From positions 1 through 34,807 of the forward strand of contig JAQBOU010000097.1 of NCBI GenBank assembly GCA_028287865.1: a stretch of DNA of 34,807 nt. Reading direction: 5' to 3'. Below the pieces are notes generated by a model that saw only the letters and a program-made list of their open reading frames with translations, did not search any database and was not told where the DNA came from. Shown here piece after piece: positions 14,390 to 31,898 of this stretch. The position numbers and the translations under genes are program-made. How positions within the stretch are numbered: position 1 is the stretch's first letter; every line of letters begins with the position of its first letter. This stretch comes from Mucilaginibacter sp. (lineage in GTDB: Bacteria; Bacteroidota; Bacteroidia; Sphingobacteriales; Sphingobacteriaceae).

Positions 14390-15763
14390 ATGAAAAATCT
14401 AACCCAAAAAATCGCAGTCGTTTTTTTGTTCGCAACTTTCCTTATTCCATTAATCAGCAAAGCACAAAGCAGTCCGGAATTATTTGATGGTAAAACCCTT
14501 AAGGGCTGGAAACGCCTGGCCGGAACAGCGGATTATAAGGTGGAAGACGGTGCTATCGTTGGTACAACCGTGCTTAACTCCGGTAATACTTTTCTGGTAA
14601 CAGATAAAGAATACGGCGACTTTATTTTGGAGATGGATACTAAAATTGAAAGCCCGCTAAGTAATTCAGGAGTTCAAACCCGTAGCCATTATGATCCATC
14701 CGGCAATAACGGTAAAGGCAAAGTTTATGGCAGGCAGTTTGAGATCGATCCATCAGTACGCAAATGGTCGGGTGGGATCTATGACGAGGGCAGGCGCGAT
14801 TGGCTGTATCCGCTTGATCTGAACGCAAAGGCTAAAGATGCGTTTAAGGTGGGTGAATATAACCACATCCGTATAGAATGTATCGGCAACGAAATGAAAA
14901 CATGGATAAACGGCACCCCGGTTGCTTACATGGTGGATACAGTTGATAGCAAAGGATTTATCGGTTTACAGGTTCATGCAGTAAGCACAACTGAGCAAGC
15001 CGGTAAAAAAGTGTATTTCAAAAATCTCCGCATCCAAACAAAAAACCTGGTACCTAAGCCATTTCCGAAAGATGTATTCGTGGTAAATTACACACCTAAT
15101 ACCCTATCTGCCCATGAAAAAGCAAGTGGCTGGAAATTACTGTACGATGGTCATACCTCAACCGGATGGCGCGGGGCAACAATAACTGCGTTTCCGGCTA
15201 AAGGCTGGGTGTATAACGAAGGCGCTATGCATGTACTGCCATCGGCCGGGAAAGAAGAGTCAGGCGGCGGCGATATTGTTACTGATGACATGTACAGCGC
15301 GTTTGACCTCTCCTTCGAATTTAAATTAACACCGGGAGCCAATACCGGCGTAAAATACTTTGTTACCCTGAGCGAAGTTACCAAAGGATCGGCTATTGGT
15401 TTGGAATACCAGGTTTTGGATGATGCGCTGCACCCCGATGCCAAGCTGGGCCGTAATGGCGACCGCACGCTGGCCTCTCTTTACGACCTGATCCCATCCA
15501 AAAAACAGGAGCGTTTTACAAGGTCGATAGGAGCATGGAATACCGGCCGGATCGTGGTTTATCCTGATAACCATGTGGAGCATTATTTAAACGGCGTTAA
15601 AGTACTAGAGTATGAAAGAGGCTCAAAAGAGTTCCGCGACCTGGTAGCCATTAGTAAATATGTGATCTGGAAAAACTTCGGCGAAGCCAAAGAAGGGCAT
15701 ATTTTATTACAGGACCATGGAAATGAGGCGTATTTCAGGAGTATTAAGATCAGAAAGCTGTAA
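14390..15763 (+). CDS. Secreted protein with two DUF1080 (3-keto-disaccharide hydrolase / LamG-like) domains
   Basis: Signal peptide; ELFDGKTLKGWKRL and KLLYDGHTSTGWRGA domain starts; terminal YFRSIKIRKL. Confidence 0.9.
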   Translation: MKNLTQKIAVVFLFATFLIPLISKAQSSPELFDGKTLKGWKRLAGTADYKVEDGAIVGTTVLNSGNTFLVTDKEYGDFILEMDTKIESPLSNSGVQTRSHYDPSGNNGKGKVYGRQFEIDPSVRKWSGGIYDEGRRDWLYPLDLNAKAKDAFKVGEYNHIRIECIGNEMKTWINGTPVAYMVDTVDSKGFIGLQVHAVSTTEQAGKKVYFKNLRIQTKNLVPKPFPKDVFVVNYTPNTLSAHEKASGWKLLYDGHTSTGWRGATITAFPAKGWVYNEGAMHVLPSAGKEESGGGDIVTDDMYSAFDLSFEFKLTPGANTGVKYFVTLSEVTKGSAIGLEYQVLDDALHPDAKLGRNGDRTLASLYDLIPSKKQERFTRSIGAWNTGRIVVYPDNHVEHYLNGVKVLEYERGSKEFRDLVAISKYVIWKNFGEAKEGHILLQDHGNEAYFRSIKIRKL

Positions 15764-15787
15764 TCCGGTCCTCATGACATCGATTTG

Positions 15788-15878
15788 AAAAATTCCTCCC
15801 AGTGAAGGGGTGCGGTTGACAGTGAAGTAGCAGGGGAGGGGTTTCGCAGCGAATGCCCGCTGAGTAGTTTCCAGAAAA
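15788..15878. repeat. Left copy of ~90-bp imperfect direct repeat flanking palindromic element A
   Basis: Shares ggggtgcggttgacagtgaagtagcag...ggaggggtttcg with 16075-16166. Confidence 0.85.
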
Positions 15879-15888
15879 TTCCCGCCCG

Positions 15889-16056
15889 TTCAAGTGTCCA
15901 CACTTGAATGCAAAAAGTTTAAGCATCCACGCTTAAATTATTAACTATTTCTAAAGAGCGTTCAGATTCGCACCGATATATCAAAATTTGCAATGCATGT
16001 TTTTGACGTAAGCGTGGACGCTTACAATTTCAGGTGTCCAAGTGTAGACACTTGAA
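15889..16056 (+). repeat. Mirror-ordered palindromic element, copy A (4 palindromes, no ORF)
   Basis: Palindromes at 15889-15908 (TTCAAGTGTCCACACTTGAA), 15918-15937 (TTTAAGCATCCACGCTTAAA), 16008-16025 (GTAAGCGTGGACGCTTAC), 16037-16056 (TCCAAGTGTAGACACTTGAA). Confidence 0.88.
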
Positions 16057-16074
16057 CAGGCGATGGTTGCCGCT

Positions 16075-16166
16075 AAAATTCCCTCCCAAGGGAGGGGTGC
16101 GGTTGACAGTGAAGTAGCAGGGAGGGGTTTCGCCGGCCAATGCCTGCTAATCAATTTCCAAAAGAA
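16075..16166. repeat. Right copy of ~90-bp imperfect direct repeat flanking palindromic element A
   Basis: Aligned by eye to 15788-15878. Confidence 0.85.
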
Positions 16167-16200
16167 TAAGCATTAATGAACAGTTCGTAAACCCCTGCCT

Positions 16201-16241
16201 CCACCTTCCCTCCAAAGGAGTCCTATGGACCAGGGAAGGAA
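16201..16241 (+). repeat. Dispersed intergenic repeat, also present inverted at 5220-5259
   Basis: ccaccttccctccaaaggagtcctatggaccagggaagga matches the reverse complement of the 5220-5259 segment. Confidence 0.8.
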
Positions 16242-16277
16242 TCGCAAGGTCCTTGTTTTTAATCCCGATTCATTCAT

Positions 16278-17291
16278 TCACACTACCTCATTCTTCTTCT
16301 GAAAACTATAATACAAATAGAATAACGAAGGAAGTATTAAAAAGCTACCTATAATAAGCCCCCAGCCTAAATCGTCTATAGTTTTTGGCGGGGCATGCAG
16401 CGCCATTAATGATAAATTTTGACCGCCCTTTACCATCACCATATAAGGCCAGTGCATATAACCCACCGCTAAAAGGATCATGGTTACCTGGAAACCGGCA
16501 AATATCCTGATGATCTTTCTTTTTCCCTTATAGATCAGCACCCAAAGCGTAATCAGCGACAAAGTTGCAGCTATTACCGCTACCAGGCTCACGGGATTGC
16601 CAAATATCCAGTGTGCCAGGCGGATATGTTCAATTTCAGCCGCTAAAAATACCGCACCACCAAAAATTACCGCAATAATGTTCATAACCCTGGCTTTTTT
16701 AATAAAACGACGGGCGTCATTATCATCTTCAGCCTCGCCGATGAGGTAAATAGCTGCCAGGTAACCGCTTAAGGCTACAGTAAATAGTCCTACGGCAACC
16801 GAAAAATAGTTAAGCCAGCTAAAAATATAGCCCGTAACAAACGAGGTAGGGTGCAGGTCTATTTGCCTGGAGATAACGCTCCCGGCAATAATGCCTAAAA
16901 ACAGCGGGGTAACAAAGCTGGAATAGACAAATACGTGATTATAGATCCGCTGCGTATTTTCGCCTTTTATAGCATCATAGTTTCTGAAAGAGAAAGCGGT
17001 ACCCCGGGCAGTGATTCCCAGCAGCATAATAAGCAGCGGGATATGCAGGTAAGTACACATTTGGCTGTATATAAACGGAAAGCCAACAAACATGATCACC
17101 ACGGCTATGATCAGCCACATGTGGTTTGCTTCCCAAATAGGGCCCATTGCCTGATACATGGTTTTTCGGGTGCGTGATTTATTTTTATCCGAGGTAAAAA
17201 GCTCGATAATACCCGCGCCAAAATCGGCCCCGCCAAGCAAAAAATATAACACAATGGCTAAAAACAAAAAAGCGATCACAACATATAACAT
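16278..17291 (-). CDS. cydB: Cytochrome bd ubiquinol oxidase subunit II
   Basis: LGGADFGAGIIELF, WEANHMWLI, GTAFSFRNY motifs; adjacent to cydA. Confidence 0.95.
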   Translation of the reverse strand: MLYVVIAFLFLAIVLYFLLGGADFGAGIIELFTSDKNKSRTRKTMYQAMGPIWEANHMWLIIAVVIMFVGFPFIYSQMCTYLHIPLLIMLLGITARGTAFSFRNYDAIKGENTQRIYNHVFVYSSFVTPLFLGIIAGSVISRQIDLHPTSFVTGYIFSWLNYFSVAVGLFTVALSGYLAAIYLIGEAEDDNDARRFIKKARVMNIIAVIFGGAVFLAAEIEHIRLAHWIFGNPVSLVAVIAATLSLITLWVLIYKGKRKIIRIFAGFQVTMILLAVGYMHWPYMVMVKGGQNLSLMALHAPPKTIDDLGWGLIIGSFLILPSLFYLYYSFQKKNEVV

Positions 17292-17297
17292 AAGCTT

Positions 17298-18608
17298 CTA
17301 TTTAACGTCGTACAATTCAGGAACCATCTTTATTTGCCTGCTTAACAGGAAGATAACAGCAATACTTAAAGTGAAGTAAATAGCCGTAAAAAGATAAAAA
17401 GAGTAATGGATACCAGGCATGGGTGTTACCGCGGCGCTCGTCCGCATAATTCCCTGGATGATCCATGGCTGACGGCCAACTTCGGTAACTGTCCATCCGG
17501 CCTCTACCGCAATAAAGCCAAATGGAGTTGCTAAAATAAACAGATTCAAAAACCAGTTCTTGTTGAGCCAGCTTCTTTTTTTCCAAAGAGCAATAAAATA
17601 TATGATGCCCAACAACATCATAGCCGAGCCGATAGCGATCATCAGCTCAAAGGCCAGGTGGGTAACCATAACCGGAGGTTCATCCTGGTCGGGGATGGTA
17701 TCGAGCCCTTTAACAGGTTCTTTAAAATTATCGTTTACCAAAAAACTTAATAGTCCGGGTATTTCAATGCCGTATTTAACTTTCTTATTTAAGGTATCCG
17801 GTATGCCGCCAATAACCAATGGCGAGTAGGACTGCGTATGATAATAAGCTTCCATTGCAGCGAGTTTGGCAGGTTGATTTTTTGCTGCATTTTTAGCAGA
17901 GATATCACCGCTAAAGGGTTGTAATATAGCTGCTACCGCTCCAAAAATGATGGCAATTTTAAATGCCTGGGTATGAAACCGGATATTTCTTTGGCGGGCG
18001 ATCATCAGGGCATGTATTCCGGCTACTGCAAAACCGGTGGCAGAAAATGCAGCCAGCGTCATATGCAACGCTTCTGAGAACCAGGAACCATTAAACATGG
18101 CTTTAATGGGATCGATATTGAGATACTGGCCATTTACATAATCAAAACCGGCCGGGTTATTCATCCATGAATTGGCAGATACCACTAAAATTCCCGAAGC
18201 GATACCGCTTATACCCACTATAACACCGGTAAACCAGTGAAACCATTTATTAAACCTGTTCCATCCGTAAAGGAAAAACCCGAGCGCAATGGCCTCGATA
18301 AAAAAAGCAACCCCTTCCAGCGAAAAAGGCATGCCGAATATCGGCCCCGCGTGTTCCATAAATTTGGGCCACAACAGCCCTAGCTCGAAAGATAAAATTG
18401 TGCCAGATACGGCGCCGGTAGCAAAAAATATAGCTACTCCCTTGCTCCATGCCTGCGTAACGTTTTTATAAACAGCATCGCCCGTGCGTATCCATTTGTA
18501 GTGCGATACGGCCATAAACAATGGCATCACCATCCCTATACAGGAGTATATGATGTGAAAGCCTAACGATATGGCCATTTGCGACCTTGCAGCTATAAAG
18601 TCATTCAT
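17298..18608 (-). CDS. cydA: Cytochrome bd ubiquinol oxidase subunit I
   Basis: ARSQMAISLGFHIIYSCIGMVMP, GVAIFFATGAVSGTILSFELGLLWPKFM, EAGWTVTEVGRQPWI. Confidence 0.96.
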   Translation of the reverse strand: MNDFIAARSQMAISLGFHIIYSCIGMVMPLFMAVSHYKWIRTGDAVYKNVTQAWSKGVAIFFATGAVSGTILSFELGLLWPKFMEHAGPIFGMPFSLEGVAFFIEAIALGFFLYGWNRFNKWFHWFTGVIVGISGIASGILVVSANSWMNNPAGFDYVNGQYLNIDPIKAMFNGSWFSEALHMTLAAFSATGFAVAGIHALMIARQRNIRFHTQAFKIAIIFGAVAAILQPFSGDISAKNAAKNQPAKLAAMEAYYHTQSYSPLVIGGIPDTLNKKVKYGIEIPGLLSFLVNDNFKEPVKGLDTIPDQDEPPVMVTHLAFELMIAIGSAMMLLGIIYFIALWKKRSWLNKNWFLNLFILATPFGFIAVEAGWTVTEVGRQPWIIQGIMRTSAAVTPMPGIHYSFYLFTAIYFTLSIAVIFLLSRQIKMVPELYDVK

Positions 18609-18843
18609 ATATTATGTTCGCTCTAAATTGTGTCGCGAAGCCTGCAAACACGCAGCGCGACTTTTATTTGTATAAAAGGTGGATAAGCTTTCTTATCTAT
18701 TTGCCTCACCTAAATCCTTTCCAAAGGAGAAAACTTTGACCGACAAAGTAGTATTTTAAGCCCTTCTCCAAGGGAGATAGGTTGGGATGAGGCATCCCTC
18801 ATTGCTTATCCAAACTTATTTAACAGGGTTGGGCGGAGCCGGT

Positions 18844-19257
18844 TTAATGAGGCAATCCGTCCCTTACTGCTCCGTAAACCCAGGTCCCTGCTATAGCGCT
18901 TAAAAGCGTTACGGTAACAACCAGGAAGCCGCTTCCTATTTGTGCAAACAAAGGGCCGGGGCAGGCTCCTGTAAGTGCCCATCCTAAACCAAATATTAAT
19001 CCGCCATAAACATTTCCCCAGTGGAATTTTTTTGTTGGTATGATGATGTCCTCGCCACTGAACGTTTTAAGCCTGAACCGTTTGATAATTAATATAGCGA
19101 TCAGACCGACAACTATCGCGCTGCAAATAATACCATACATATGAAAAGCCTGCAGCCTGAACATTTCCTGGATCCTGAACCATGAAATAACTTCCGACTT
19201 TACCAGGATAATGCCAAATACCAAACCTGCCAATAAATATTTAAAGTTACGCTTCAT
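18844..19257 (-). CDS. YeeE/YedE-type membrane protein, C-terminal half of a split pair (DUF6691-like)
   Basis: GLIFGLGWALTGACPGPLFAQIGSG motif; ATG overlaps upstream gene stop. Confidence 0.88.
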   Translation of the reverse strand: MKRNFKYLLAGLVFGIILVKSEVISWFRIQEMFRLQAFHMYGIICSAIVVGLIAILIIKRFRLKTFSGEDIIIPTKKFHWGNVYGGLIFGLGWALTGACPGPLFAQIGSGFLVVTVTLLSAIAGTWVYGAVRDGLPH

Positions 19258-19814
19258 AATTTAATAAGGTAAGGTAAAATAAACCAGGTCATTACAAAAC
19301 CGCCGATCATAAAACAGCAGGTAGCAACTACCGAAGGCCATTGAAGGGACGCTATGCCCATAATAGAATGACCGGAGGTACATCCACCGGCATACCGGGT
19401 GCCAAAGCCTACCAAAAAACCGCCTGCCACCATAAAAATAAGTCCTCTTAAAGTAAACAGTTGATGAAAGCTGAAAATATCCTGCGGCAATAAACCGCTG
19501 AAATCTTTCAAGCCCTGTTGTTTTAGCAATGCGGTAGTATGTGGATTAATAGCGACAGCATGCTGCCCATTTAAAAATTGCGCGGCAACAAATCCGCCTA
19601 AAACAATACCGGCAACAAAAAACAGGTTCCAGCTTTCTTTTTTCCAGTCGTACTTAAAAAATGAAATATTAGCAGGGATACAAAAAGCACAAATATGTCT
19701 GAGTGATGAGGATATGCCAAATGATTTATTTCCTGCAAATAACAATGCAGGTACGATTAGGCCCATTAACGGTCCTGCTATATACCATGGCCATGGTTCC
19801 TTTAAAAACTCCAT
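19254..19814 (-). CDS. YeeE/YedE family membrane protein, N-terminal half (putative sulfur-compound transporter)
   Basis: GGFLVGFGTRYAGGCTSGHSIMGIASLQWPS motif. Confidence 0.9.
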   Translation of the reverse strand: MEFLKEPWPWYIAGPLMGLIVPALLFAGNKSFGISSSLRHICAFCIPANISFFKYDWKKESWNLFFVAGIVLGGFVAAQFLNGQHAVAINPHTTALLKQQGLKDFSGLLPQDIFSFHQLFTLRGLIFMVAGGFLVGFGTRYAGGCTSGHSIMGIASLQWPSVVATCCFMIGGFVMTWFILPYLIKL

Positions 19815-19947
19815 ATATTATAATGTAAAATATGCATTACAAATATACCCAATACTGAATTTAACTATCCGGCTTTAAAAAATTGCTTGTTAAATAGAAT
19901 TATTCTAAAGAATTTAAAAATGGTAACTGCATCATATTCAAAAAGGA

Positions 19948-20010
19948 GGCTCCTATGGAGCCGAAAACGGTGGCGGCTGTTTTCTATAAACAGGGTACTC
20001 CTGCGGAGTA
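19948..20010 (+). repeat. Double-palindrome unit 1
   Basis: GGCTCCTATGGAGCC - 33 nt - TACTCCTGCGGAGTA, with tctataaacagg next to the second palindrome. Confidence 0.85.
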
Positions 20011-20052
20011 AAAAAACGAACCTGTAAATATATAACAGGATTATTCTGTAAC

Positions 20053-20139
20053 ATGTCAACTAAAATCCGGACAAGACCGCGTCTATAAATAATGGTTTTA
20101 ACCTCACCAAAAATGTCAACTAAAATCCGGACAAGACCG
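20053..20139. repeat. Two identical 27-bp direct repeats atgtcaactaaaatccggacaagaccg, period 60 bp
   Basis: 20053-20079 and 20113-20139, plus related tgtcaacttattttaggac at 20142-20160. Confidence 0.9.
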
Positions 20140-20181
20140 TGTGTCAACTTATTTTAGGACGGCACGTGATTATGGCGCACT

Positions 20182-20245
20182 GGCTCCATAGGGGCCGCCT
20201 GTTTGTAGACATGTATTTTAAAGTTTTCCAGGCTCCGTAGGAGCC
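20182..20245 (-). repeat. Double-palindrome unit 2, inverted relative to unit 1
   Basis: GGCTCCATAGGGGCC - 34 nt - GGCTCCGTAGGAGCC, with cctgtttgtaga next to the first palindrome. Confidence 0.85.
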
Positions 20246-20402
20246 GCCTAAAAGGTACACGGTATGGAATTTAGCTTGGTTTTAATGTTTGCCTTGAAAC
20301 TCACGGACTTTTATTCCTGAATTTCAGGAAATATTTCTTTCTATCAAAAATATTACATACTTTCATCCCATCATAACCAATTGTGAGTCAATTCCTGTTT
20401 AA

Positions 20403-20957
20403 TTGAAACGTTTTTTCGCCATCGTATTACTAAGTGTTCACCTGTTTAGCATAGGGGGATATGCATTGCTGTTCCAGTATTACATCCATCAATCAGATGT
20501 ACAAATGGTTAAGCAGATCTTCGATAATAAAATTGATGAAGCAAAATTACTGGAGATAAAAATACCGGTGCACATGCCCACTATTCAAGATTGGACCGAG
20601 TATGAAGTGATTGAGGGCCAGATCCAGTTAAAAGATGCCTATTATAACTATGTAAGGCTTAAAATGACCCGCGATACCATGTATTTTGTTTGTATCCCCA
20701 ATACGGCAAAAACACGTCTCGAAAAAGCAAATATCATTACCGCCAAAGAAATAAGTGATGTTCCGCTAACCAAGAGAGGTCAAAGCCCTGCGTCAAAAAA
20801 GGTTAATACGCTTAGCGAATATAATCTGCAGGCTTTTCAGTATAACTATTCTGCATTTGGGAATACTTTACAAACAAAAAATAATAAGTTTCTTTCTACA
20901 GAAATAAACAATCCCTACATTTCATCTCCCGGGAAACCACCCAACCACATCGGCTAA
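20403..20957 (+). CDS. Conserved-type hypothetical secreted/membrane-anchored protein
   Basis: 184 aa, apparent TTG start, N-terminal hydrophobic segment MKRFFAIVLLSVHLFSIGGYALLFQ. Confidence 0.7.
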   Translation: MKRFFAIVLLSVHLFSIGGYALLFQYYIHQSDVQMVKQIFDNKIDEAKLLEIKIPVHMPTIQDWTEYEVIEGQIQLKDAYYNYVRLKMTRDTMYFVCIPNTAKTRLEKANIITAKEISDVPLTKRGQSPASKKVNTLSEYNLQAFQYNYSAFGNTLQTKNNKFLSTEINNPYISSPGKPPNHIG

Positions 20958-21196
20958 AGCTGCTTTTAAACTTTTCTATACGTCCTTATTTTGTAGGGCT
21001 GTAAATTAATTTTTATGGAAATGTCATTCATTACCTTGGTTATCAGGTATTATATCGATTTATCTGTACTGATTATCAAAGTTTAAGCAGTTTCCTGCCC
21101 TCGCTGAATGTCAGCTTATGTTAGTTCATCTTTAAAGTTGATAACATAGACATCAGCATTTTTCAACTACTTCTATTTACTTTTTAATAAAAGATT

Positions 21197-22138
21197 ATGA
21201 ATAAATCTTTACACCTGTATTTTGTAAGGTGTTGTTTGATAATATGCTGTTTAACCACTTTTTCAAAGGTCTTGCATGCCCAGACAGACGCCGATGGGCA
21301 GATGATCCCAAAAAACTTTTTCTGCGGCGTAGTAATGTACGACCACAGTAGCTGGAATAACTATTGGGAAGGAACTTTTAAACGCAACAACCTTAACATC
21401 GGAACATTAACAGCCAATACGTATTCAGTTATGGGTAATTACGGTATCAGTAATAAGCTCGACTTTTTATTTACCGTACCTTATATAACTACCAACGCTT
21501 CTGGCGGTACGCTTGCCGGGCAAAAGGGTTTTCAGGACCTCAATATATCCTTAAAGTGGCATCCTTATCAAACCAAAATTGGCAAAGGAGCTTTTGGTTT
21601 ATATGCTGTTGCAGCAGCTTCAACCCCCACAAGCAATTATGAGCCAAATTTTCTGCCTGTTTCCATCGGCTTACACAGCACTACCGCCTCATTAAGGGTA
21701 TTAGCTAACTACCAGACAGGCAGATTTTTTGTTGCCGGGGCCGGGCAATATATATACCGCAGTAATATTACTATTGATGCGGATGCCTATTATACTACCC
21801 GGGAAATTTACAGCAACAGGGTTTATATGCCTGATGTAACCAACTTTTTATTCAGCACGGGTTACCGCAGCGTCCATTTTAATGCAGAAGCTATTATATC
21901 GCAAACAACTACACATGGTGGTTTTGATATCCGCAAAAATGATATGCCTTTCCCAAGCAACGAAATGAATATGACAACGGCGGGTGTACTGTTTAAGTAC
22001 AGCTTTGACGCTGTTGCGGGTTTGGAGCTTACTGCCGGGGGCAATCGTGTTTTAGATGGCCGCAACGTTGGCCAAAGTACTGATTTCTTCGGAGGGGTGC
22101 TGTACCTGTTTGATTTTTCAAAAAACAACAAAAAGTAA
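21197..22138 (+). CDS. Outer membrane beta-barrel protein (MetA-pathway phenol degradation/transporter-like)
   Basis: Signal peptide ending LHAQ; alternating beta-strand pattern; NKLDFLFTVPYITTN and GFQDLNISLKWHPY. Confidence 0.7.
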   Translation: MNKSLHLYFVRCCLIICCLTTFSKVLHAQTDADGQMIPKNFFCGVVMYDHSSWNNYWEGTFKRNNLNIGTLTANTYSVMGNYGISNKLDFLFTVPYITTNASGGTLAGQKGFQDLNISLKWHPYQTKIGKGAFGLYAVAAASTPTSNYEPNFLPVSIGLHSTTASLRVLANYQTGRFFVAGAGQYIYRSNITIDADAYYTTREIYSNRVYMPDVTNFLFSTGYRSVHFNAEAIISQTTTHGGFDIRKNDMPFPSNEMNMTTAGVLFKYSFDAVAGLELTAGGNRVLDGRNVGQSTDFFGGVLYLFDFSKNNKK

Positions 22139-22145
22139 TTTAGCC

Positions 22146-23699
22146 ATGAAAAAGAATTTATACTATATAACCGGTCTGCTTGGTTTAACCGTTTTAGTTT
22201 TTTTAGGGTCGTGTAAAAAATCGGTGATAGATCGAACTGCATTATATCCGGCTCTTGCACCGTCAAATATTGATCTGAATGCAGATACCTGGAAACCGGT
22301 ATTGATTACAGATGCAAGCATATTTAATGTGCCTGCGCCGGATGCCGTTACTTCACCTGCCTATGTGGCGGATCTGAATGAGATAAAAGCCTATCAAAGC
22401 AATTTAACCGACGATCAGAAAGCCATTATTAAATACTGGAGCGCAGGAGCGGTATTACGCTGGAATGAAATTTTACGGGGTCTGGTGGCAAAACACAATT
22501 TGCCGCCTTATCAAAATGAAGATGGCACCTATCCGGCACCCAGTTCCACCAACCCTTTTGCATATCCGCAGTTTCCATTTTCTAATCCGCCTTATGCGGC
22601 CCGTGCTTACGCTTACGTAAGTGCAGCGCAATATGACGCCCTTATTGCTGCTTATCATTTTAAAAAAATGTATAACCGTGCAGCACCATATAATATTGCC
22701 GGCATACAGGCGCTGATCCCAAAGTCGGCATTAGCTTCATATCCGGGTGAAGATGCAGTAGTGGCGGGAGCAACGGTTGAAATTATGAAATTGTTATTTC
22801 CTACCGAGATTGCTTATATCCAACAAAAAGCCAGCGAAGAAATGCAATACCGGATGATGGCCGGCGCCAATGTAAGGGGTGAGCTGAATGCCGGACAATC
22901 GCTCGGTAGCCAGGTTGCGGACGTTTTTGCCGCCCGAGCCCGTACTGATAATGCCGGAAAAGCGATTGGCACGCAGGCAGTATGGACGCAATTACAGGTT
23001 CAAACTGCCGCCCGCGGCGAAACTTACTGGATCAGCCTGGAATCACCGTCGAGGCCGCCAATGTTGCCATTGTTCGGTAAGGTTATTCCGTTTTTGTTTG
23101 ATACTGCCGCCGTCAAAACGTTAAGGCCCGGCCCGCCAAATTTAACCAACTCAGCGGCATTTAAACAGGAGGTGGCAGAAGTGCTATCCTATAGTAAAAA
23201 TTATACACGCGAACACCAGGCGCAGGTTGAGTTTTGGGCTGATGGTGCCGGAACCTACACGCCTCCCGGACATTGGAATGCCATTGCTGCCACCGAGTTT
23301 GTACAACAAAATTACAGCGAGGTGCGCTGGGCACGGAATTTAGCACTGTTAAATATGGCCGAAATGGATGCTGCGATATGCTGCTGGGATACTAAGTATT
23401 TTTACTTTAACCAACGCCCAACACAGGCTAATCCTGCTATTAAAACCTTAACCGGCATACCCAATTTTCCTTCTTATACTTCGGGGCACTCCAATTTTAG
23501 CGGCGCTGCATCCACTATTTTAACTTATTTATTGCCGGATAGGGGTACAAAATTTACTGACTTTGCTAACCAGGCCGCAATGTCGAGGTTGTATGGCGCT
23601 ATTCATTTTCGCAGTGATTGCGAAGCTGGGTTGGTGACCGGGAATAAAGTTGGCCAATATGCAATTGCACGGGCAAAAACTGACGGAGCAGGAAATTAA
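22146..23699 (+). CDS. PAP2 / vanadium-dependent haloperoxidase family lipoprotein
   Basis: Start reassigned to MKKNLYYITGLLGLTVLVFLGSCKK (lipobox); FPSYTSGHSNFSGAAS and AIHFRSDCEAG core motifs. Confidence 0.88.
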   Translation: MKKNLYYITGLLGLTVLVFLGSCKKSVIDRTALYPALAPSNIDLNADTWKPVLITDASIFNVPAPDAVTSPAYVADLNEIKAYQSNLTDDQKAIIKYWSAGAVLRWNEILRGLVAKHNLPPYQNEDGTYPAPSSTNPFAYPQFPFSNPPYAARAYAYVSAAQYDALIAAYHFKKMYNRAAPYNIAGIQALIPKSALASYPGEDAVVAGATVEIMKLLFPTEIAYIQQKASEEMQYRMMAGANVRGELNAGQSLGSQVADVFAARARTDNAGKAIGTQAVWTQLQVQTAARGETYWISLESPSRPPMLPLFGKVIPFLFDTAAVKTLRPGPPNLTNSAAFKQEVAEVLSYSKNYTREHQAQVEFWADGAGTYTPPGHWNAIAATEFVQQNYSEVRWARNLALLNMAEMDAAICCWDTKYFYFNQRPTQANPAIKTLTGIPNFPSYTSGHSNFSGAASTILTYLLPDRGTKFTDFANQAAMSRLYGAIHFRSDCEAGLVTGNKVGQYAIARAKTDGAGN

Positions 23700-23793
23700 A
23701 AAAAGTAACAGGAGCGGGCAAGGCTCGCGAAAAATGAGCTTATTAACAAATGATTATAAACAAAATTAATTAAACCATATCAGCATAATATAC

Positions 23794-24879
23794 ATGAAAA
23801 CTACATTTAAAATTCTTACCGCTATTTGCCTTTTTATTTTACTTACACGTACAGGCGTTTACGCCCAGGGGTGTGTAGCCATCAGGAGCACAGGCGGCAT
23901 CTGCGAAATGAATGAACACCCGGACAGTACCACAACAAACGGGTATTGGTTATTTAACAGCAACGATCGTTATTATAAATCATTCAGGCACTTTGTAGGT
24001 AAAGCCGAGCAGTACCAACGCTTTACATTGCACAATAACGTAATTAATAAGGTGTTTACGCAGGATAACTCTTTAACCCGTATATTCAATAACCGGTGGT
24101 CGGCAACTTTTGATATGCCTTTTGCGGATAACAGTCGGTCGCAGGTAAGCAGCGGCACCCGTTTCAGCACCCATTCGTTTGGTGTTGGCGATATAAGTGT
24201 CACCGGTTTTTATTGGCTGTTCAACCCGGCTAAGGCAACAAAAGCTAATATCCAGGTAGGCCTGGGTATAAAATTTGCTACCGGGGCTTCCAATTACCAG
24301 GATTATTTCTTAAACGGCGCCACCGGTGCCAGAACGCTTGGGCCGGTTGATCAATCCATCCAGTTAGGCGACGGCGGTACTGGTATTTCTTTTAATATGA
24401 ATACCTATTATAACTTCACCCATTCTTTTGGCCTTTACGGAAATTTCTTTTATCTGTCTAATCCAAGAGACGTAAACCAAACATTACGGTCGGCAACCCC
24501 TGCAAGCGCCACTACAATAGCCGCTACCGGCGATGTATTAAGTGTGCCGGATCAATACCTCATCAGGTTTGGGGCAGGTTTAGCAGTTAAAAAATTCAAC
24601 TTTTCTTTAGGCGTGCGCGACGATTGTTTGCCTGTACATGACCTTGTTGGAGGCAGTGATGGTTTCAGAAGGCCTGGCTACATTATTTCAGCCGAGCCGG
24701 GCATAACTTATGAGTTTAAAAATATTGCCCTGTATGCTTACGTACCGATTGCGATCATCCGCGACCGTACCCAAAGCGTACCGGATATAAGAACTACAGA
24801 AATAACAGGAGTTTACACCCACGGTGATGCTGCCTTTGCAGATTACGTTGTCAACGTGGGGATAACCGTTAAATTTTAA
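23794..24879 (+). CDS. Outer membrane beta-barrel / transporter-like protein
   Basis: Signal peptide ending VYAQ; beta-strand pattern; C-terminal VNVGITVKF. Confidence 0.7.
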   Translation: MKTTFKILTAICLFILLTRTGVYAQGCVAIRSTGGICEMNEHPDSTTTNGYWLFNSNDRYYKSFRHFVGKAEQYQRFTLHNNVINKVFTQDNSLTRIFNNRWSATFDMPFADNSRSQVSSGTRFSTHSFGVGDISVTGFYWLFNPAKATKANIQVGLGIKFATGASNYQDYFLNGATGARTLGPVDQSIQLGDGGTGISFNMNTYYNFTHSFGLYGNFFYLSNPRDVNQTLRSATPASATTIAATGDVLSVPDQYLIRFGAGLAVKKFNFSLGVRDDCLPVHDLVGGSDGFRRPGYIISAEPGITYEFKNIALYAYVPIAIIRDRTQSVPDIRTTEITGVYTHGDAAFADYVVNVGITVKF

Positions 24880-24904
24880 CAAAGTTGATACTTGATTTAA
24901 GACA

Positions 24905-24936
24905 AGCCGGGCGTGAGATACCCGGCTTTTTATTTT
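24905..24936 (+). terminator. Rho-independent terminator
   Basis: AGCCGGG-cgtgagata-CCCGGCT followed by T-rich tract, 25 nt after the stop of the beta-barrel gene. Confidence 0.85.
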
Positions 24937-24966
24937 ATGTTTGTTTTTAAATTATACCTTTTAAAA

Positions 24967-25431
24967 ATGAATACTGCTGATCAGAATTTTGCAGCGCTTG
25001 GACTAAGCCTGCCGCCGGCACCAAAGCCGCTGGGCGTTTATAAACCTTGTTTAATTGATGGTAAATATCTCTATGTGTCAGGCCACGGTACTGTAAAGGA
25101 CGATGGTACCCTGATCATTGGTCGTATAGGAGCTACGTTAACACCGGAAGAGGGCAAACTGGCCGCACGCCAGGTAGGCCTTGCCATACTGGCAACCATT
25201 AAGGCAAACCTCGGAACCTTTGATAAAGTAAAAAGGGTTATTAAAGTATTAGGAATGGTTAATTGCACCCCCGACTTTGAAAAACATCCTTTTATTATCA
25301 ACGGCTGCAGCGAGTTGTTTTCGAAGGTTTGGGGCGAGGATAATGGAATAGGGGTACGTAGCGCCGTTGGCATGGGATCGTTACCCGATAATATTCCGGT
25401 TGAAATAGAGGCGTTGTTTGAGCTTTATTGA
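24967..25431 (+). CDS. RidA family protein
   Basis: Start reassigned to MNTADQNF; GKYLYVSGHGTVKDDG, RVIKVLGMVNCTPDF, VRSAVGMGSLPDNIPVEIEALFE. Confidence 0.9.
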   Translation: MNTADQNFAALGLSLPPAPKPLGVYKPCLIDGKYLYVSGHGTVKDDGTLIIGRIGATLTPEEGKLAARQVGLAILATIKANLGTFDKVKRVIKVLGMVNCTPDFEKHPFIINGCSELFSKVWGEDNGIGVRSAVGMGSLPDNIPVEIEALFELY

Positions 25432-25467
25432 AAGTCCGGAAGTCGGGGAGTCCGGAAGACCGAAAGA
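25431..25467. repeat. Degenerate short tandem repeat of agtccgga-type units
   Basis: aaagtccggaagtcggggagtccggaagaccgaaag. Confidence 0.7.
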
Positions 25468-25491
25468 TTAATTAATCAAAAATAAAAACCA

Positions 25492-26607
25492 ATGGACGAA
25501 AAAAATTGGTATGTCATAGATGATATTGAAATATTAGATACACCGGCTTTGGTAGTTTATCCCGCCAGGGTAAAACAGAATATCGAACTGCTTAAAAGCA
25601 TGATCGATAACCCTGCCAGGTTGCGGCCGCATGTTAAAACCTATAAAAACAGGGAGGCTACCTTGCTGGCTATGGATGCAGGTATCACAAAATTTAAATG
25701 CGCTACCATTGCGGAGGCCGAAATGCTGGGTATATGCAAAGTACCCGATGTTTTGCTGGCTTATCAGCCCGTAGGGCCGAAGCTTAAAAGGTTTATTCAG
25801 CTTATTACCTCTTTCCCCGAAACCAAATTCTCTTGCCTGGTTGATAACGGCAACGCTGCACGGGATATATCCTCTTCAGCTGTATCAAATAACATCCGCA
25901 TACCTGTTTATATTGATTTGAATGTGGGTATGAACCGCACAGGGATTTTACCGGGCGGGGAAGCGTTGCAGCTTTACTTGGATTGTGACTTATTACCCGG
26001 TATAAAACCAGTTGGTTTGCATGCTTATGACGGCCATATCCATGATCCTGATCTGCAAACCCGGGCTGAAAAGTGTAACCAAGGTTTTGAACCGGTTATT
26101 AAATTACAGACTGAATTGAAGCAAAAGGGATATCCCGAACCGGTGATCATAGCAGGCGGTTCGCCAACATTTCCTATCCATGCAAAAAGGGATGCGGTTG
26201 AATGCAGTCCGGGTACTTATATTTATTGGGACAGGGGCTACCAAACCGCATTAAACGAACAACCATTTTTAACGGCCGCATTGGTGGTAGCAAGGGTAAT
26301 ATCCCTGCCTACCGAAACAAAAATATGCCTCGACCTGGGCCATAAGTCCGTTTCTGCCGAAAATGATTTAAGCAAACGGATTTACTTTCTGAATGCACCC
26401 GAATTAGTGATGACCGGGCAAAGTGAAGAACATTTGGTAGCAGAGGCCGGTAAAGATCATCGATATAAAATAGGGGATATATTATACGGATTGCCGTACC
26501 ATATTTGCCCTACCGTGGCATTATATGAACGGGCAATTATCATAGAAAACAAAAAGATCGCCGGTGAATGGAAAAACATCGCCCGCGACCGCAAAATAAC
26601 CATATAA
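25492..26607 (+). CDS. D-threonine aldolase-like (DSD1 family) PLP-dependent enzyme, alanine racemase N-terminal fold
   Basis: DTPALVVYPARVKQN, LRPHVKTYKNREAT, YIDLNVGMNRTGI, HAYDGHIHD, and C-terminal LVAEAGKDHRYKIGDILYGLPYHICPTVALYE. Confidence 0.9.
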   Translation: MDEKNWYVIDDIEILDTPALVVYPARVKQNIELLKSMIDNPARLRPHVKTYKNREATLLAMDAGITKFKCATIAEAEMLGICKVPDVLLAYQPVGPKLKRFIQLITSFPETKFSCLVDNGNAARDISSSAVSNNIRIPVYIDLNVGMNRTGILPGGEALQLYLDCDLLPGIKPVGLHAYDGHIHDPDLQTRAEKCNQGFEPVIKLQTELKQKGYPEPVIIAGGSPTFPIHAKRDAVECSPGTYIYWDRGYQTALNEQPFLTAALVVARVISLPTETKICLDLGHKSVSAENDLSKRIYFLNAPELVMTGQSEEHLVAEAGKDHRYKIGDILYGLPYHICPTVALYERAIIIENKKIAGEWKNIARDRKITI

Positions 26608-26708
26608 CCTCGTAGAGACACAATACTTTGTGTCTCTACGAGGTGTCTCTGAATTGATAATTATATAATTACACACAATGCAAGGACGCAAAGTATTGGG
26701 TCTCTACA
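26608..26708. repeat. Pair of inverted gtagagac-type palindromic repeats around an AT-rich spacer
   Basis: CCTCGTAGAGACACAA-TACT-TTGTGTCTCTACGAGG (26608-26643) and gcaaggacgcaa-agta-ttgggtctctac (to 26707). Confidence 0.85.
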
Positions 26709-26725
26709 TTGTAAAACAATAAAAC

Positions 26726-27796
26726 ATGTTCACCATAGATGCCCATTTAGATTTAAGCATGAACGCCCTGGAATGGAACCGCGACCTGCGGAAACCTGTT
26801 GCAGCAATAAACGAACGCGAAAAAGGCTTAAATGATAAACCTGACCGCGCCAAAGCAGTGGTTTCACTACCCGAATTACGAAATGGCAATATTGGCCTGG
26901 TGGTAGCCACACAGATCGGCAGGTATGTTGCGCCGGAAAACCCGCTGCCCGGCTGGCACTCGCCCGAACAGGCATGGGCGCAAACCCAGGGCCAGGTAGC
27001 ATGGTATAAAGCAATGGAAGAAGATGGCGGGATGGTACAAATAAATGATCTGCTCAGTCTTGAAAAGCATTTGAAGTTATGGAATGATGGGACACCCAAT
27101 AGTTCAAAGCCAATCGGATATATTTTAAGCCTGGAAGGCGCTGATTCTATCATTACCATAAAACACCTGGAACGTGCATATAATTATGGTTTAAGGGCAG
27201 TTGGCCCGGCACACTATGGCCCCGGCCGCTACGCACAAGGCACGGATGCTACCGGTTTTATGGGGCCGCAAGGGCATGAGCTGTTAAAGGAAATGGAGCG
27301 CCTGAATATTATTTTAGATGCCACGCATTTATGCGATGATAGTTTTTGGGAAGCACTGGATCATTTTAACGGGCACATTTGGGCTAGCCACAACAATTGC
27401 CGGGCTTTAGTGAACCATAACCGTCAGTTTAGTGATGAAATGATAAAAGAACTGGTAAACCGGGGTGCCGTGATAGGTGCTGCGTTAGATGCCTGGATGA
27501 TGGTGCCCGGTTGGGTAAGAGGTGTATCAACCCCCGAAGGAATGAACTGTAACCTGGAGGTGATGGTTGATCATATCGATCACATCTGCCAGCTGGCCGG
27601 CAATGCCCTCCATGTAGGCATCGGCTCCGACCTCGACGGCGCTTTTGGTCGCGAGCAATGCCCGTATGATTTAGAGACCATTGCTGATCTTCAAAAATTA
27701 CCTGCATTATTAACAAAGCGGGGTTATACTGAATCAGATATCGTAAATATGATGCACGGTAACTGGCTCAGGTTTTTAAGAAATGCGTGGAAATAA
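26726..27796 (+). CDS. Membrane (renal) dipeptidase family protein
   Basis: TIDAHLDLSMNALEWNRD, LSLEGADSI, LDATHLCDDSFWEALDHFNGHIWASHNNCRAL, GIGSDLDGAFG. Confidence 0.93.
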   Translation: MFTIDAHLDLSMNALEWNRDLRKPVAAINEREKGLNDKPDRAKAVVSLPELRNGNIGLVVATQIGRYVAPENPLPGWHSPEQAWAQTQGQVAWYKAMEEDGGMVQINDLLSLEKHLKLWNDGTPNSSKPIGYILSLEGADSIITIKHLERAYNYGLRAVGPAHYGPGRYAQGTDATGFMGPQGHELLKEMERLNIILDATHLCDDSFWEALDHFNGHIWASHNNCRALVNHNRQFSDEMIKELVNRGAVIGAALDAWMMVPGWVRGVSTPEGMNCNLEVMVDHIDHICQLAGNALHVGIGSDLDGAFGREQCPYDLETIADLQKLPALLTKRGYTESDIVNMMHGNWLRFLRNAWK

Positions 27797-27844
27797 GGGT
27801 ACAATTAATGTTTACATTGTGCTGCGGTATTATACCTTGTTAAC

Positions 27845-30442
27845 ATGAATGCAGAACAATCAAGATTAAAAGATTCAACCTGGAAAAAATGGGGGCCTTA
27901 TGTAAGCGACCGTCAATGGGGAACTGTTAGGGAGGATTACAGCGCCAACGGTGATGCCTGGAACTACATAACCCATGATATGGCCCGCAGCAAAGCCTAT
28001 CGCTGGGGCGAAGAAGGCATTGCCGGGATCTGCGACAACGAGCAATTGCTTTGTTTTGCGGTGGCATTTTGGAATAAAAAGGATCCTATTATCAAAGAAC
28101 GCTACTTCGGCCTCAGCAACCCCGAGGGCAACCATGGCGAGGATGTTAAAGAGCTATATTATTACCTTGATAATACGCCCACCCATTCGTACCAGAAAAT
28201 GCTGTATAAATATCCGCAAAACGAATATCCGTATGAGTGGCTGGTCGACGAAAATAAAAGACGGAGCCGTAACGACCCGGAATTTGAATTAATAGATACA
28301 GGCTTGCTCGACCAGGACGCTTATTTTGATATTTTTATCGAATACGTAAAAAACACACAGCAGGACATATTAATAAAGATCACCGTTAATAACAGGGGAG
28401 GTGAGGACGCCGCATTAAATGTATTGCCAACCTTATGGTTTCGTAATACCTGGGTATGGGGTTATGATAATTTTACCCCTCAATTAAGTGACGGTTCGCA
28501 CGGCGTAATTGAGATCTATCATAAAGACCTTGGTCAGTTTTATTTAAACACCGAAGGCTCGCCGGAGATACTGTTTTGTGACAACGAAACAAATACCAAA
28601 CAGCTTTATGATTATAACGATGGCAGGCAATTTTGTAAAGATGGCATCAATGACCATGTTGTTCATGGCGCGGATACCATCAACCAAAAAAAAACCGGGA
28701 CAAAGGCAAGCGTTAATTTTGATATAAATGTACCGGCAAAGCAAAGTGTTACGCTTCGTCTGAGGCTTTCACAGGATGCAGGGAATGGTTTTGATGATTT
28801 CGATAAGCTATTTGATGCCCGTAAGCAGGAAGCCGACCAATTTTATGCTGATCTGCAAAAAGGCAATAACGATACCGACCGCCGTATGGTACAGCGCCAG
28901 GCTTTCGCAGGTATGTTGTGGAGCAAACAGTTCTATTATTATGATGTAAGGCACTGGATCAACGGTGATCCGGCCGAACCTGCGCCTCCTGCCGAAAGGT
29001 TATTTACCAGGAACAGCAAATGGACACATTTAAATACAAAGGACGTTATTTCGATGCCTGATAAATGGGAATATCCCTGGTTCGCCTCCTGGGACCTGGC
29101 TTTTCATTGTTTGCCGCTTGCCTCACTGGATATGGCCTTTGCAAAAAATCAGCTCACGCTGCTCATCAGGGACTGGTATATGCATCCTAACGGGCAACTG
29201 CCGGCTTATGAGTGGGATTTTAGTGATGCAAATCCTCCTGTGCATGCCATGGTAACCTGGAAAATTTATCAGAAGGATAAAGAAGCCAACGGGGGTAAAG
29301 GGGATACCTATTTTTTAGAGCGCATTTTCCATAAGTTGATGCTCAATTTTACGTGGTGGGTAAACCGTAAGGATGCAGCAGGGAATAATATTTTTGAAGG
29401 GGGTTTTTTAGGGCTGGATAACATAGGCGTATTTGACCGCAATGCAAAACTGCCTCTGGGTGAACGCCTGGAGCAGGCCGACGGCACCAGCTGGATGGCC
29501 ATGTATTCTTTAAACCTGTTGCGTATTGCCGCAGAGCTGGCTGTAACCAACAAGGCCTACAATGATATTGCCAGTAAGTTCTTCGAACATTTTATTTACA
29601 TTTCGGGTGCGTTATCGAATCTTGGACAAAATAAGGAAGGTCTTTGGGACGATACAGATGGCTTTTTTTACGACCAGTTGCGCTTGCCCGATAACAGTAC
29701 TGAGAAAATGCGGGTTAGGAGCCTGGTTGGTTTAATCCCTTTGTTTGCTGCCGAAGTGCTGGATGATGACGATATAACCAACAACCCTATCTTTAGAGAC
29801 CGCATGACCTGGTTTGCCGAAAATCGTCCAGATCTTGCTTTGCTGGTGTCACGCTGGGCAGAAACCAAGGGAACGGGTAAGCACCTCATCAGTTTGTTAC
29901 GGGGCTACCGCATGAAATCCCTGCTTAAATATATGCTGGACGAAAATGAGTTTTTAAGTCCTTATGGGATTCGCTCGGTTTCAAAATATCATTTAAATAA
30001 TCCTTATCAGGTTAAAGTGGATGGCATGGAGTTCAGTATAAAATATACCCCTGCCGAAAGTGACAGCGGTTTATTTGGCGGCAACAGTAACTGGCGCGGC
30101 CCTATATGGATGCCCATGAACTTTTTACTGATCGAAAGCCTGCAAAAATTTCATGAGTATTACGGCGATGACTATAAAATTGAATGCCCTACAGGTTCGG
30201 GTGTTTTCATGAATATGCAGCAGGTTGCGGAGGAATTGTACCGGCGCGTGTCTAATATATTTTTGCGGGATAAAGACGGTAAAAGGGCAGTATTCGGCAA
30301 TTACGCCAAGCTGCAAAACGACCCCAACTTTAAAGATTATATATTGTTTTATGAATATTTTGATGGGGATAACGGCCGCGGGGTAGGCGCCTCCCATCAA
30401 ACAGGGTGGACAGGGTTGATAGCTAACTGCTTGCATCAGTAA
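27845..30442 (+). CDS. MGH1/GH63-like glycoside hydrolase (glucosidase)
   Basis: 865 aa; W-rich (alpha/alpha)6-type sequence: YPWFASWDLAFHCLPLASLD, GQLPAYEWDFSDANPPVHA, NWRGPIWMPMNFLLIESL. Confidence 0.9.
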   Translation: MNAEQSRLKDSTWKKWGPYVSDRQWGTVREDYSANGDAWNYITHDMARSKAYRWGEEGIAGICDNEQLLCFAVAFWNKKDPIIKERYFGLSNPEGNHGEDVKELYYYLDNTPTHSYQKMLYKYPQNEYPYEWLVDENKRRSRNDPEFELIDTGLLDQDAYFDIFIEYVKNTQQDILIKITVNNRGGEDAALNVLPTLWFRNTWVWGYDNFTPQLSDGSHGVIEIYHKDLGQFYLNTEGSPEILFCDNETNTKQLYDYNDGRQFCKDGINDHVVHGADTINQKKTGTKASVNFDINVPAKQSVTLRLRLSQDAGNGFDDFDKLFDARKQEADQFYADLQKGNNDTDRRMVQRQAFAGMLWSKQFYYYDVRHWINGDPAEPAPPAERLFTRNSKWTHLNTKDVISMPDKWEYPWFASWDLAFHCLPLASLDMAFAKNQLTLLIRDWYMHPNGQLPAYEWDFSDANPPVHAMVTWKIYQKDKEANGGKGDTYFLERIFHKLMLNFTWWVNRKDAAGNNIFEGGFLGLDNIGVFDRNAKLPLGERLEQADGTSWMAMYSLNLLRIAAELAVTNKAYNDIASKFFEHFIYISGALSNLGQNKEGLWDDTDGFFYDQLRLPDNSTEKMRVRSLVGLIPLFAAEVLDDDDITNNPIFRDRMTWFAENRPDLALLVSRWAETKGTGKHLISLLRGYRMKSLLKYMLDENEFLSPYGIRSVSKYHLNNPYQVKVDGMEFSIKYTPAESDSGLFGGNSNWRGPIWMPMNFLLIESLQKFHEYYGDDYKIECPTGSGVFMNMQQVAEELYRRVSNIFLRDKDGKRAVFGNYAKLQNDPNFKDYILFYEYFDGDNGRGVGASHQTGWTGLIANCLHQ

Positions 30443-30496
30443 TCAAAAACCTGTTGTGAAGAAAGATTTCCGAAGTTTTTGAAACTTCGGAAATCT
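30422..30496. repeat. Left copy of 75-bp direct repeat (covers glycosidase C-terminus, stop and hairpin)
   Basis: 67/75 identical to 30785-30859 by manual alignment, no gaps. Confidence 0.92.
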
Positions 30497-30506
30497 AAAT
30501 TGCCTG

Positions 30507-30774
30507 TTCAAGTGTCTACACTTGAACCTTCTTCACCTCGTAATTCCTATATTGCCCGTTCAAGTGTTCACACTTGAACGTCTAAAATTTTAAGCGTCCA
30601 CGCTTAAATCAAAATAGCCATTGTTAATTCACAATAAAAATCCCATATTTATTTCATGTCACGCAACGCCTCAACGACGAACTTTAGCGCAAATCCGGAA
30701 AGCCCATTAAAAATAATTAGTTAATTTAAGCGTGCACGCTTAAAAAAAATTACATTCAAGTGTGGACACTTGAA
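30507..30774 (-). repeat. Mirror-ordered palindromic element, copy B (5 palindromes, no ORF)
   Basis: Palindromes at 30507-30526, 30559-30578, 30589-30608, 30725-30744, 30755-30774; all have perfect 9-nt arms. Confidence 0.9.
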
Positions 30775-30784
30775 TGGGCGGGTT

Positions 30785-30859
30785 GCTAACTGCTTGCATC
30801 AATAATCAAAAACCTGTCCTGAAGAGAGATTTTCGAAGTTTCAAAAACTTCGGAAATCT
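30785..30859. repeat. Right copy of 75-bp direct repeat flanking element B
   Basis: gctaactgcttgcatcaataatcaaaaacctg... duplicates the glycosidase gene 3' end. Confidence 0.92.
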
Positions 30860-30965
30860 GAAGCCGTAAATCTCTTAATGTGTTAAATTGACACAATAAA
30901 ATTTCTTTTTCTCCTTTTATTCATTTAGTTTTACGTAACCACATAAACTAAATTATCAAATAAAC

Positions 30966-31898
30966 ATGAATTTCAGCAGGCGTAAGTTTTTGCAAAGTAC
31001 CGGTACACTGGCACTTGGCAGTTTGGCTTTTTCAGGAAAAGCCGGTTCTCTTTTTAATTCAGCGGAGCTGCACCCGGTTGGTTTGCAGCTTTTTACATTT
31101 TTTGGGGTGATAGATGATGATGTAAAAGGTACCTTAAGCCGCATCGCGGCTATCGGTTACAAAGAACTGGAATCGGCATTCAGCAAAAAGGGTGGTTATT
31201 ATGGCATGAAACCAAAGGAATTCAAGGCCATGGTGAATGACCTGGGGATGTCGTGGAAATCGCATCACGTATTGGGTGCGCCGTTTAAATTGCCCAAAGG
31301 CTATAAAATGCCGCTCGGCACTGATGGCAAACCGATGGTGATACCACAAAAGATGGCTAACCTGCAGGATAATATGCAGCAATTGGTAGATGAAGCTGCC
31401 GCAGGCGGTATTAAATACCTGGTTTGTGCTAATGCGCCTACCGGCACGCTTGAAGAGATCAAAACCACTGTTGAAACGTTAAACAAAACCGGCGAAGCAG
31501 CAAAGAAAGTTGGGATACAGTTTGCTTACCACAACCACGACATGGAATTTCATGAAGTGGAGGGTAAAATTCCGTACCATTTGCTGCTGAAAGAAACAGA
31601 TGCGAAAAATGTAAAGATGGAGCTCGACCTGGCATGGGCTGTTAAAGGTGGTCATGACCCCGTAGAAATATTTAAAGCTTATCCCGGCCGTTTCCCGTTG
31701 TGGCATGTAAAGGATTTGGATGCCAGCCATAACGATATATTACCTGTGGGCAGGGGGACTATCGATTTTAAAAGAATATTCGAGAATAAAGCAATTGCCG
31801 GAATGCAGCATTTCTTTGTTGAGCATGACATGCCTAAGGATGCTTATGCAAGTGCTAAAAGCAGCTTTGAGTATCTTACCAAAACCCTTAAGGCCTGA
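30966..31898 (+). CDS. Tat-exported sugar phosphate isomerase/epimerase-like TIM-barrel protein
   Basis: Twin-arginine signal NFSRRKFLQSTG; AP-endonuclease 2-type barrel motifs (YHNHDMEFHE, MELDLAWAVKGGHDP, WHVKDLDASH). Confidence 0.9.
   Translation: MNFSRRKFLQSTGTLALGSLAFSGKAGSLFNSAELHPVGLQLFTFFGVIDDDVKGTLSRIAAIGYKELESAFSKKGGYYGMKPKEFKAMVNDLGMSWKSHHVLGAPFKLPKGYKMPLGTDGKPMVIPQKMANLQDNMQQLVDEAAAGGIKYLVCANAPTGTLEEIKTTVETLNKTGEAAKKVGIQFAYHNHDMEFHEVEGKIPYHLLLKETDAKNVKMELDLAWAVKGGHDPVEIFKAYPGRFPLWHVKDLDASHNDILPVGRGTIDFKRIFENKAIAGMQHFFVEHDMPKDAYASAKSSFEYLTKTLKA

Follow-up and report, generated by a model that had tools for sequence, protein, structure and literature searches.

The window, a stretch of 34,807 nt from Mucilaginibacter sp., contains two non-coding elements, here called A and B, each built from four short palindromes in opposite orientation to the other, and it raises the question of what these elements are and how they came to lie there. 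The initial annotation took them for a two-copy family and offered two readings, a non-autonomous transposable element (a MITE or a REP/BIME-like element, moved in trans) or a group of sites bound by a dimeric protein; further copies, empty sites in related strains and a RAYT-type gene near related termini were named as checks. Here we report that, as judged from sequence comparison, A and B are very probably non-autonomous, internally deleted derivatives of a Mucilaginibacter RAYT transposon.

The pattern TTYAAGYGTNNACRCTTRAA matches the window nine times with up to three mismatches, where 0.35 matches are expected and 100 shuffles gave at most 3. All palindromes were found at the positions first assigned to them, and the mirror order outer-inner-core-inner-outer is seen in both copies (Table 1). 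The interval 30507-30774 initially given for B begins too early, since position 30507 takes in a fifth palindrome that belongs to an extra partial end, in which no clear inner hairpin was seen. The palindromes are near-perfect 9-2-9 dyads whose symmetry is broken at the 2-nt loop. Read inward from either end, this loop is normally CC, which gives every end a direction. A single long hairpin can form from the complete B element (-49.1 kcal/mol, z -8.6), as is true of REPINs. Both elements are intergenic, A between convergent genes and B downstream of a gene, and Rfam gave no match across 15500-31100 of the window.

Table 1. Features of elements A and B and their surroundings in the window (bits, covariance model score; z, value for DNA folding)
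Feature	Position	Strand	Remarks
A left direct duplication	15788..15876	+	89 nt; 79% identical to 16075-16163
Copy A, four-hairpin REPIN-like element	15884..16061	+	178 nt between GCC feet
A left end	15884..15939	+	foot GCCCG; outer hairpin 15889-15908, inner 15918-15937; 67.3 bits; fold -10.8 kcal/mol, z -5.5
A core	15940..16004	+	65 nt; first ~47 nt match RAYT 3' end
A right end	16005..16061	-	inner hairpin 16007-16026, outer 16037-16056, foot; 69.9 bits; z -4.3
A right direct duplication	16075..16163	+	partner of 15788-15876
B left direct duplication	30413..30499	+	87 nt; 3' end of gene 27845-30442 and terminator-like hairpin
Extra partial end adjoining B	30502..30542	+	outer hairpin 30507-30526, GCCTG foot; 30 bits
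Copy B, four-hairpin REPIN-like element	30554..30779	-	226 nt; orientation opposite to A
B right end	30554..30610	+	outer hairpin 30559-30578, inner 30589-30608; 71.6 bits; z -8.0
B core	30609..30724	-	116 nt; RAYT 3' piece joined to RAYT 5' piece and leader
B left end (minus-strand reading)	30723..30779	-	outer hairpin 30755-30774, inner 30725-30744; 69.8 bits; z -6.4
B right direct duplication	30776..30862	+	85% identical; first bases overlap B foot

Each end consists of 5'-CGCC, an outer hairpin, about 9 nt and an inner hairpin, with the loops read inward; the consensus is GCC-N-R-(TTCAAGYGT-CC-ACRCTTGAA)-about 9 nt-(TGTAAGCGT-CC-ACGCTTACA). In the units of genomes G045 and G074 (L115, L116, L120, L121) both hairpins of each end are short of one loop base (GCGTCCCGC), which looks as though the loss had passed to all ends as a set. 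The GCC was itself a requirement of the search that gave 68 ends, and the C before it (position -1) occurs in 61 of these. The canonical REP foot GT[AG]G was looked for in the ends and is absent, (C)GCC standing as the foot, which counts against the RAYT-transposon explanation. Compensatory change within the hairpins supports it. Among 39 aligned sequences 97.9% of the cells of 18 hairpin pairs are paired and 13 of the 18 pairs show two-sided change, with 0 of 500 shuffles as high and slid structures only 21-42% paired; most of the 39 sequences were picked by palindromy, so the percentage leans upward, as does, to a lesser degree, the count of compensatory changes. Further support comes from covariance model R1, built from this alignment of relatives and excluding all sequence of the window's genome, which detects the four ends of A and B at 67.3-71.6 bits. 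Ends that belong to one unit are more alike than those taken from separate units (0.888 vs 0.781; 0/2000), and close pairs of ends are, among the matches listed, mostly inverted and convergent (+- 19, -+ 6, ++ 1, -- 1), both of which argue for the same explanation. These close pairs are 115-226 nt long, and the wider +- pairs listed, of 656-719 nt, are RAYT units.

The family extends well beyond the two copies first supposed. In the whole 4.0 Mb genome of the window (G000, of which C35, C165, C202 and C227 are contigs) TTYAAGYGTNNACRCTTRAA occurs at 16 sites with no more than one mismatch, compared with none for the reversed pattern, and R1 locates ends on 8 contigs, in no fewer than 18 places. 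Of 91 Mucilaginibacter genomes 67 gave model matches, against none of 59 from outside the genus; the numbers of ends per genome are lower bounds, with at most 37 candidates scored in each. Genome G067 holds at least 18 ends and gave no RAYT match at E 1e-10, its ends being possible orphan REPINs after RAYT loss. A second subfamily in G000, with GCCCGGTTAGGCGTCCACGCCTAACC and the inner hairpin TTTTGAGTGTCCACACTCAAAA, is found at L133 (C202:3700-4800), L134, L135 and L137; the assembly, which is incomplete, shows no RAYT alongside it. Three contigs from a viral collection (L199, L200, L201) carry one outer palindrome each. Contig C205 was suggested as a further site by a weak DNA match, and inspection shows no element there.

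A 173-aa RAYT gene, of the kind that the initial annotation had proposed to look for near related termini, lies in the same genome at C165:2573-3094(-) between the same two-hairpin ends as A and B, which supports the RAYT-transposon explanation and, with it, the earlier reading of a non-autonomous element moved in trans. Its product matches NCBIfam REP_Tyr_transpos NF047646.1 (99 bits, cut-off 80) and Pfam Y1_Tnp (23.5 bits, cut-off 23), matches no IS200 model and found no match at E 0.001 in a PDB sequence search. It contains the motifs NHIH, WQ, YIHENP and YSS with a HuH-Y distance of 84 aa; the tyrosine motif has E where RAYT subclass 2.6 has Q or N, and other copies have N or D. Across 16 relatives neither the two HuH histidines nor the tyrosine varies (the tyrosine motif of two is YTHENP), and the named organisms among the relatives are Mucilaginibacter.

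The closest RAYTs in relatives (72-81% identity) are flanked by the same ends, and the parent-type unit is a Y1 HUH gene between two inverted ends, about 660-720 nt in all. At least one end lies beside the gene in all 17 of the closest loci, and in 12 of them (L083-L087, L090-L096) the gene is inside a +/- pair. At L088 just one side of the gene has an intact end; the RAYTs of L089, L097, L098 and L099 are rearranged and lie beside or between extra elements instead of in a simple unit, which counts against the RAYT-transposon explanation. Among the distant RAYTs L100-L112 (about 50% identity) no such ends were found except for one marginal match of 18.9 bits, and a plasmid search gave distant RAYTs only, with at most 49% identity. 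Many of the L100-L112 loci have other palindromes. The second RAYT of G000, a 237-aa frame on C35 (L051:1296-1994), was rejected as driver because no R1 ends lie beside it; its flanks hold other, AAACGAGCGCAAGT-like repeats.

The initial annotation had noted that the cores of A and B align and that no ORF lies inside. The alignment holds, with sequence common to both at the same offset, and the cores contain no open ORF but are themselves remnants of a gene. In the B core 27 nt at offset 12-39 correspond to the RAYT 3' end, at an offset identical in the RAYT unit, and a second piece of about 65 nt corresponds to the RAYT 5' end and leader; about 450 nt of the unit are missing between the two pieces, which in BLAST meet at B position 115. 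The local score of the B core against the RAYT unit is 72, with 0 of 1000 shuffles as high (maximum 45). The match in the A core is spaced from the inner hairpin just as it is in the RAYT unit. This core scores 36-49 against 7 of 11 RAYT units (a level reached by 0-1 of 300 shuffles) but only weakly against C165 itself (28; 23 of 300 shuffles as high). The likeness of the first halves of the A and B cores, noted initially, therefore reflects shared descent from the RAYT 3' end. RAYT-derived cores at matching offsets support the RAYT-transposon explanation. Two 220-nt elements in genome G010 likewise retain the RAYT 5' end. At L138 (G010 C2:1033500-1040300) about 6 kb hold a RAYT unit together with two RAYT-derived elements of 220 nt and additional ends. 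At the matching ends A and B show only about 76-81% likeness to the C165 unit, which is thus a relative of the parent and not the proven parent; the two elements are probably old and have diverged from it.

The RAYT unit itself may also move. G074 contains two complete units, 92% identical over about 680 nt, and G045 another two with 86% identity; in both pairs the homology stops at the hairpin ends and the flanks are unrelated, one of the G074 copies being without part of the left outer hairpin. When a 3-kb query around a G074 copy was used, many genomes matched just the unit, about 1100-1779 of 3001, and had the neighboring gene at another place; in G150, for example, the unit lies at 2.66 Mb and that gene at 3.54 Mb. 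These comparisons suggest that the unit moves. Two copies could also be explained by independent horizontal gains, so whole-unit movement is something we infer, yet gains that mimic duplication would still require the unit to move. According to the published view tnpAREP is a single-copy gene with no evidence of mobility (PMC8266576, PMC3116915, PMC6006769), and Bertels and Rainey proposed that the ends of an IS200-like ancestor gave rise to REPINs (PMC3116915). An ordinary REPtron would agree with the published view of immobility: the RAYT would be domesticated and immobile, REPINs alone would move, and the remnants in A and B would result from local deletion of immobile RAYTs. This alternative, which competes with whole-unit mobility only and not with the REPIN reading, is also in line with the few close RAYT copies in most genomes examined, but the paired units with unrelated flanks in G074 and G045, and the restriction of the block common to different species to the unit alone, in differing contexts, make it rather unlikely, though tenable. 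That the Mucilaginibacter RAYT unit is a complete self-moving transposon, with A, B and the two G010 elements as intermediates in the birth of REPINs, is a proposal for which we see the chances as evenly balanced.

Related species keep the same neighbor genes with short gaps that contain no elements, the outcome of the proposed empty-site check, here run on other species. At A, where the matched neighbor stretches of the window are about 525 nt apart, the gaps measure 107 nt in G074, 113 in G155, 98 in G055, 94 in G151, 60 in G023 and 52 in G033; at B, with 367-442 nt in the window, they measure 93 nt in G055, 39 in G014, 23 in G033 and 14 in G023. Because these sites come from other species, they show the presence or absence of extra DNA and not the exact junctions. 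Together with the repeated whole units with unrelated flanks, they support the RAYT-transposon explanation. The direct duplications around the two elements count against it, since repeats of 87-89 nt are not predicted by Y1 transposition. The duplicated stretch flanking B, with the gene 3' end and the terminator-like hairpin, is single-copy in relatives. Among 34 units tested, in a comparison that would miss repeats of a few bases, direct duplications adjoin A and B alone (scores 101 and 111, against 44 at most in the random control), and target-site duplication was therefore rejected as a general signature, the diverged repeats being confined to the surroundings of A and B. A 46-nt portion of the A-flanking repeat (GAGGGGTGCGGTTGACAGTGAAGTAGCAGGGAGGGG and neighbors) recurs at C227:14638-14683 and 21429-21474 with 81-85% identity.

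The positions of A and B relative to their neighbor genes, and the strong folding of the ends, would also suit bidirectional terminators or mRNA-stabilizing hairpins spread by recombination. A secondary terminator role is possible; as the sole explanation it is highly improbable, accounting neither for the inverted four-hairpin anatomy and its CGCC foot nor for the RAYT remnants and a cognate RAYT. The binding-site array of the initial annotation, fixed by selection to regulate neighbor genes, draws on the near-perfect dyads and the intergenic position but is hardly credible, as transposase gene ends lie in the cores, the same ends flank a transposase gene, relatives retain the neighbor genes without the sites, and compensated changes set the arms of different units apart but leave the two ends of any one unit alike, which is unexpected for one conserved regulator.

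HUH Y1 enzymes, such as those of IS200/IS605 and TnpA-REP, recognize hairpins on single-stranded DNA, cleave with a tyrosine and rejoin the strands. In the RAYT-transposon explanation, the RAYT, guided by the short foot, would bind the hairpins where the DNA is single-stranded (probably the replication fork), its tyrosine would cut near the CGCC feet, and the segment would be rejoined elsewhere. Any segment bounded by two inverted ends could be moved in this way. Long units would carry the RAYT gene, internal deletion would give copies such as A and B, and further loss from such copies would lead to the common four-hairpin REPINs of 115-140 nt.

RAYT groups were reportedly the subject of a study by Bertels in 2017. 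Subclass 2.6 of Quentin et al. 2018, equal to Bertels group 5, belongs to the Bacteroidetes (PMC6006769), and the accessible text of that paper lists NH[LIV]H, WQ, YIH[QN]NP, an SS tail, a HuH-Y distance of about 82 aa and a 21-aa insertion between alphaC and beta4, together with atypical hairpins beside Bacteroidetes RAYTs, and reports no GT[AG]G for the subclass. The C165 RAYT shares the phylum, the NH[LIV]H, WQ, YIH-NP and SS motifs, and hairpins lacking GTAG, both next to the gene and at other genomic sites; by motifs, length (173 vs median 179) and HuH-Y distance (84 vs median 82) it appears to fit this Bacteroidota type. Here the ends are in addition defined (two hairpins, CGCC foot, inverted unit), and a difference lies in whole units that are 86-92% identical within one genome. 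To call the elements undescribed, as was first done, is thus too broad with regard to atypical hairpins, but holds, for the accessible text, with regard to the two-hairpin anatomy and the RAYT-derived cores.

Like REPINs and BIMEs (Bertels and Rainey 2011, PMC3116915), the elements are short, non-coding and spread in intergenic DNA, with a repeated unit of two inverted hairpin ends and a cognate RAYT flanked by the same hairpins. REPINs and BIMEs differ in having one hairpin per end and GTAG, whereas two hairpins per end and CGCC are found here, and A, B and the two G010 elements still have RAYT gene ends in the core. With MITEs they share terminal inverted repeats and the internal deletion of an autonomous parent with the same termini, but the parent encodes an HUH Y1 enzyme and there is no general target-site duplication. 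TIRYTs and TIRtrons (Di Nocera et al. 2013, PMC3733652) likewise have a RAYT-like gene between long inverted repeats, and repeat copies elsewhere; the TIRYT motif GGGGWSAS was looked for in the ends and not seen, and TIRYTs are mostly of subclass 2.1, whereas the C165-type motifs fit subclass 2.6. IS200/IS605 elements share the Y1 HUH enzyme, the hairpin ends and possibly a mobile whole unit, but have a Y-x-x-x-Q motif, in contrast to the YIHENP, the inverted two-hairpin ends and the RAYT model match found here. A literature search covering main texts returned nothing on Mucilaginibacter repeats or IS200.

A and B are thus REPIN-like and MITE-like derivatives of a Bacteroidota RAYT unit, whose anatomy and intermediates are relevant to how REPINs arose. 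In the two-hairpin end with its CGCC foot there is a defined candidate substrate for a subclass whose hairpins are so far, in the accessible text, described as atypical only. One genus seems to hold full RAYT units, repeated units, deletions that keep the gene ends, and short REPINs; with all stages seemingly in one genus, both the way REPINs arose and the immobility claimed for RAYTs become directly testable. A and B would preserve an intermediate step that has so far only been assumed for the origin of REPINs and, if this is true, REPINs elsewhere would go back to such a state, the RAYT having since lost its own mobility.
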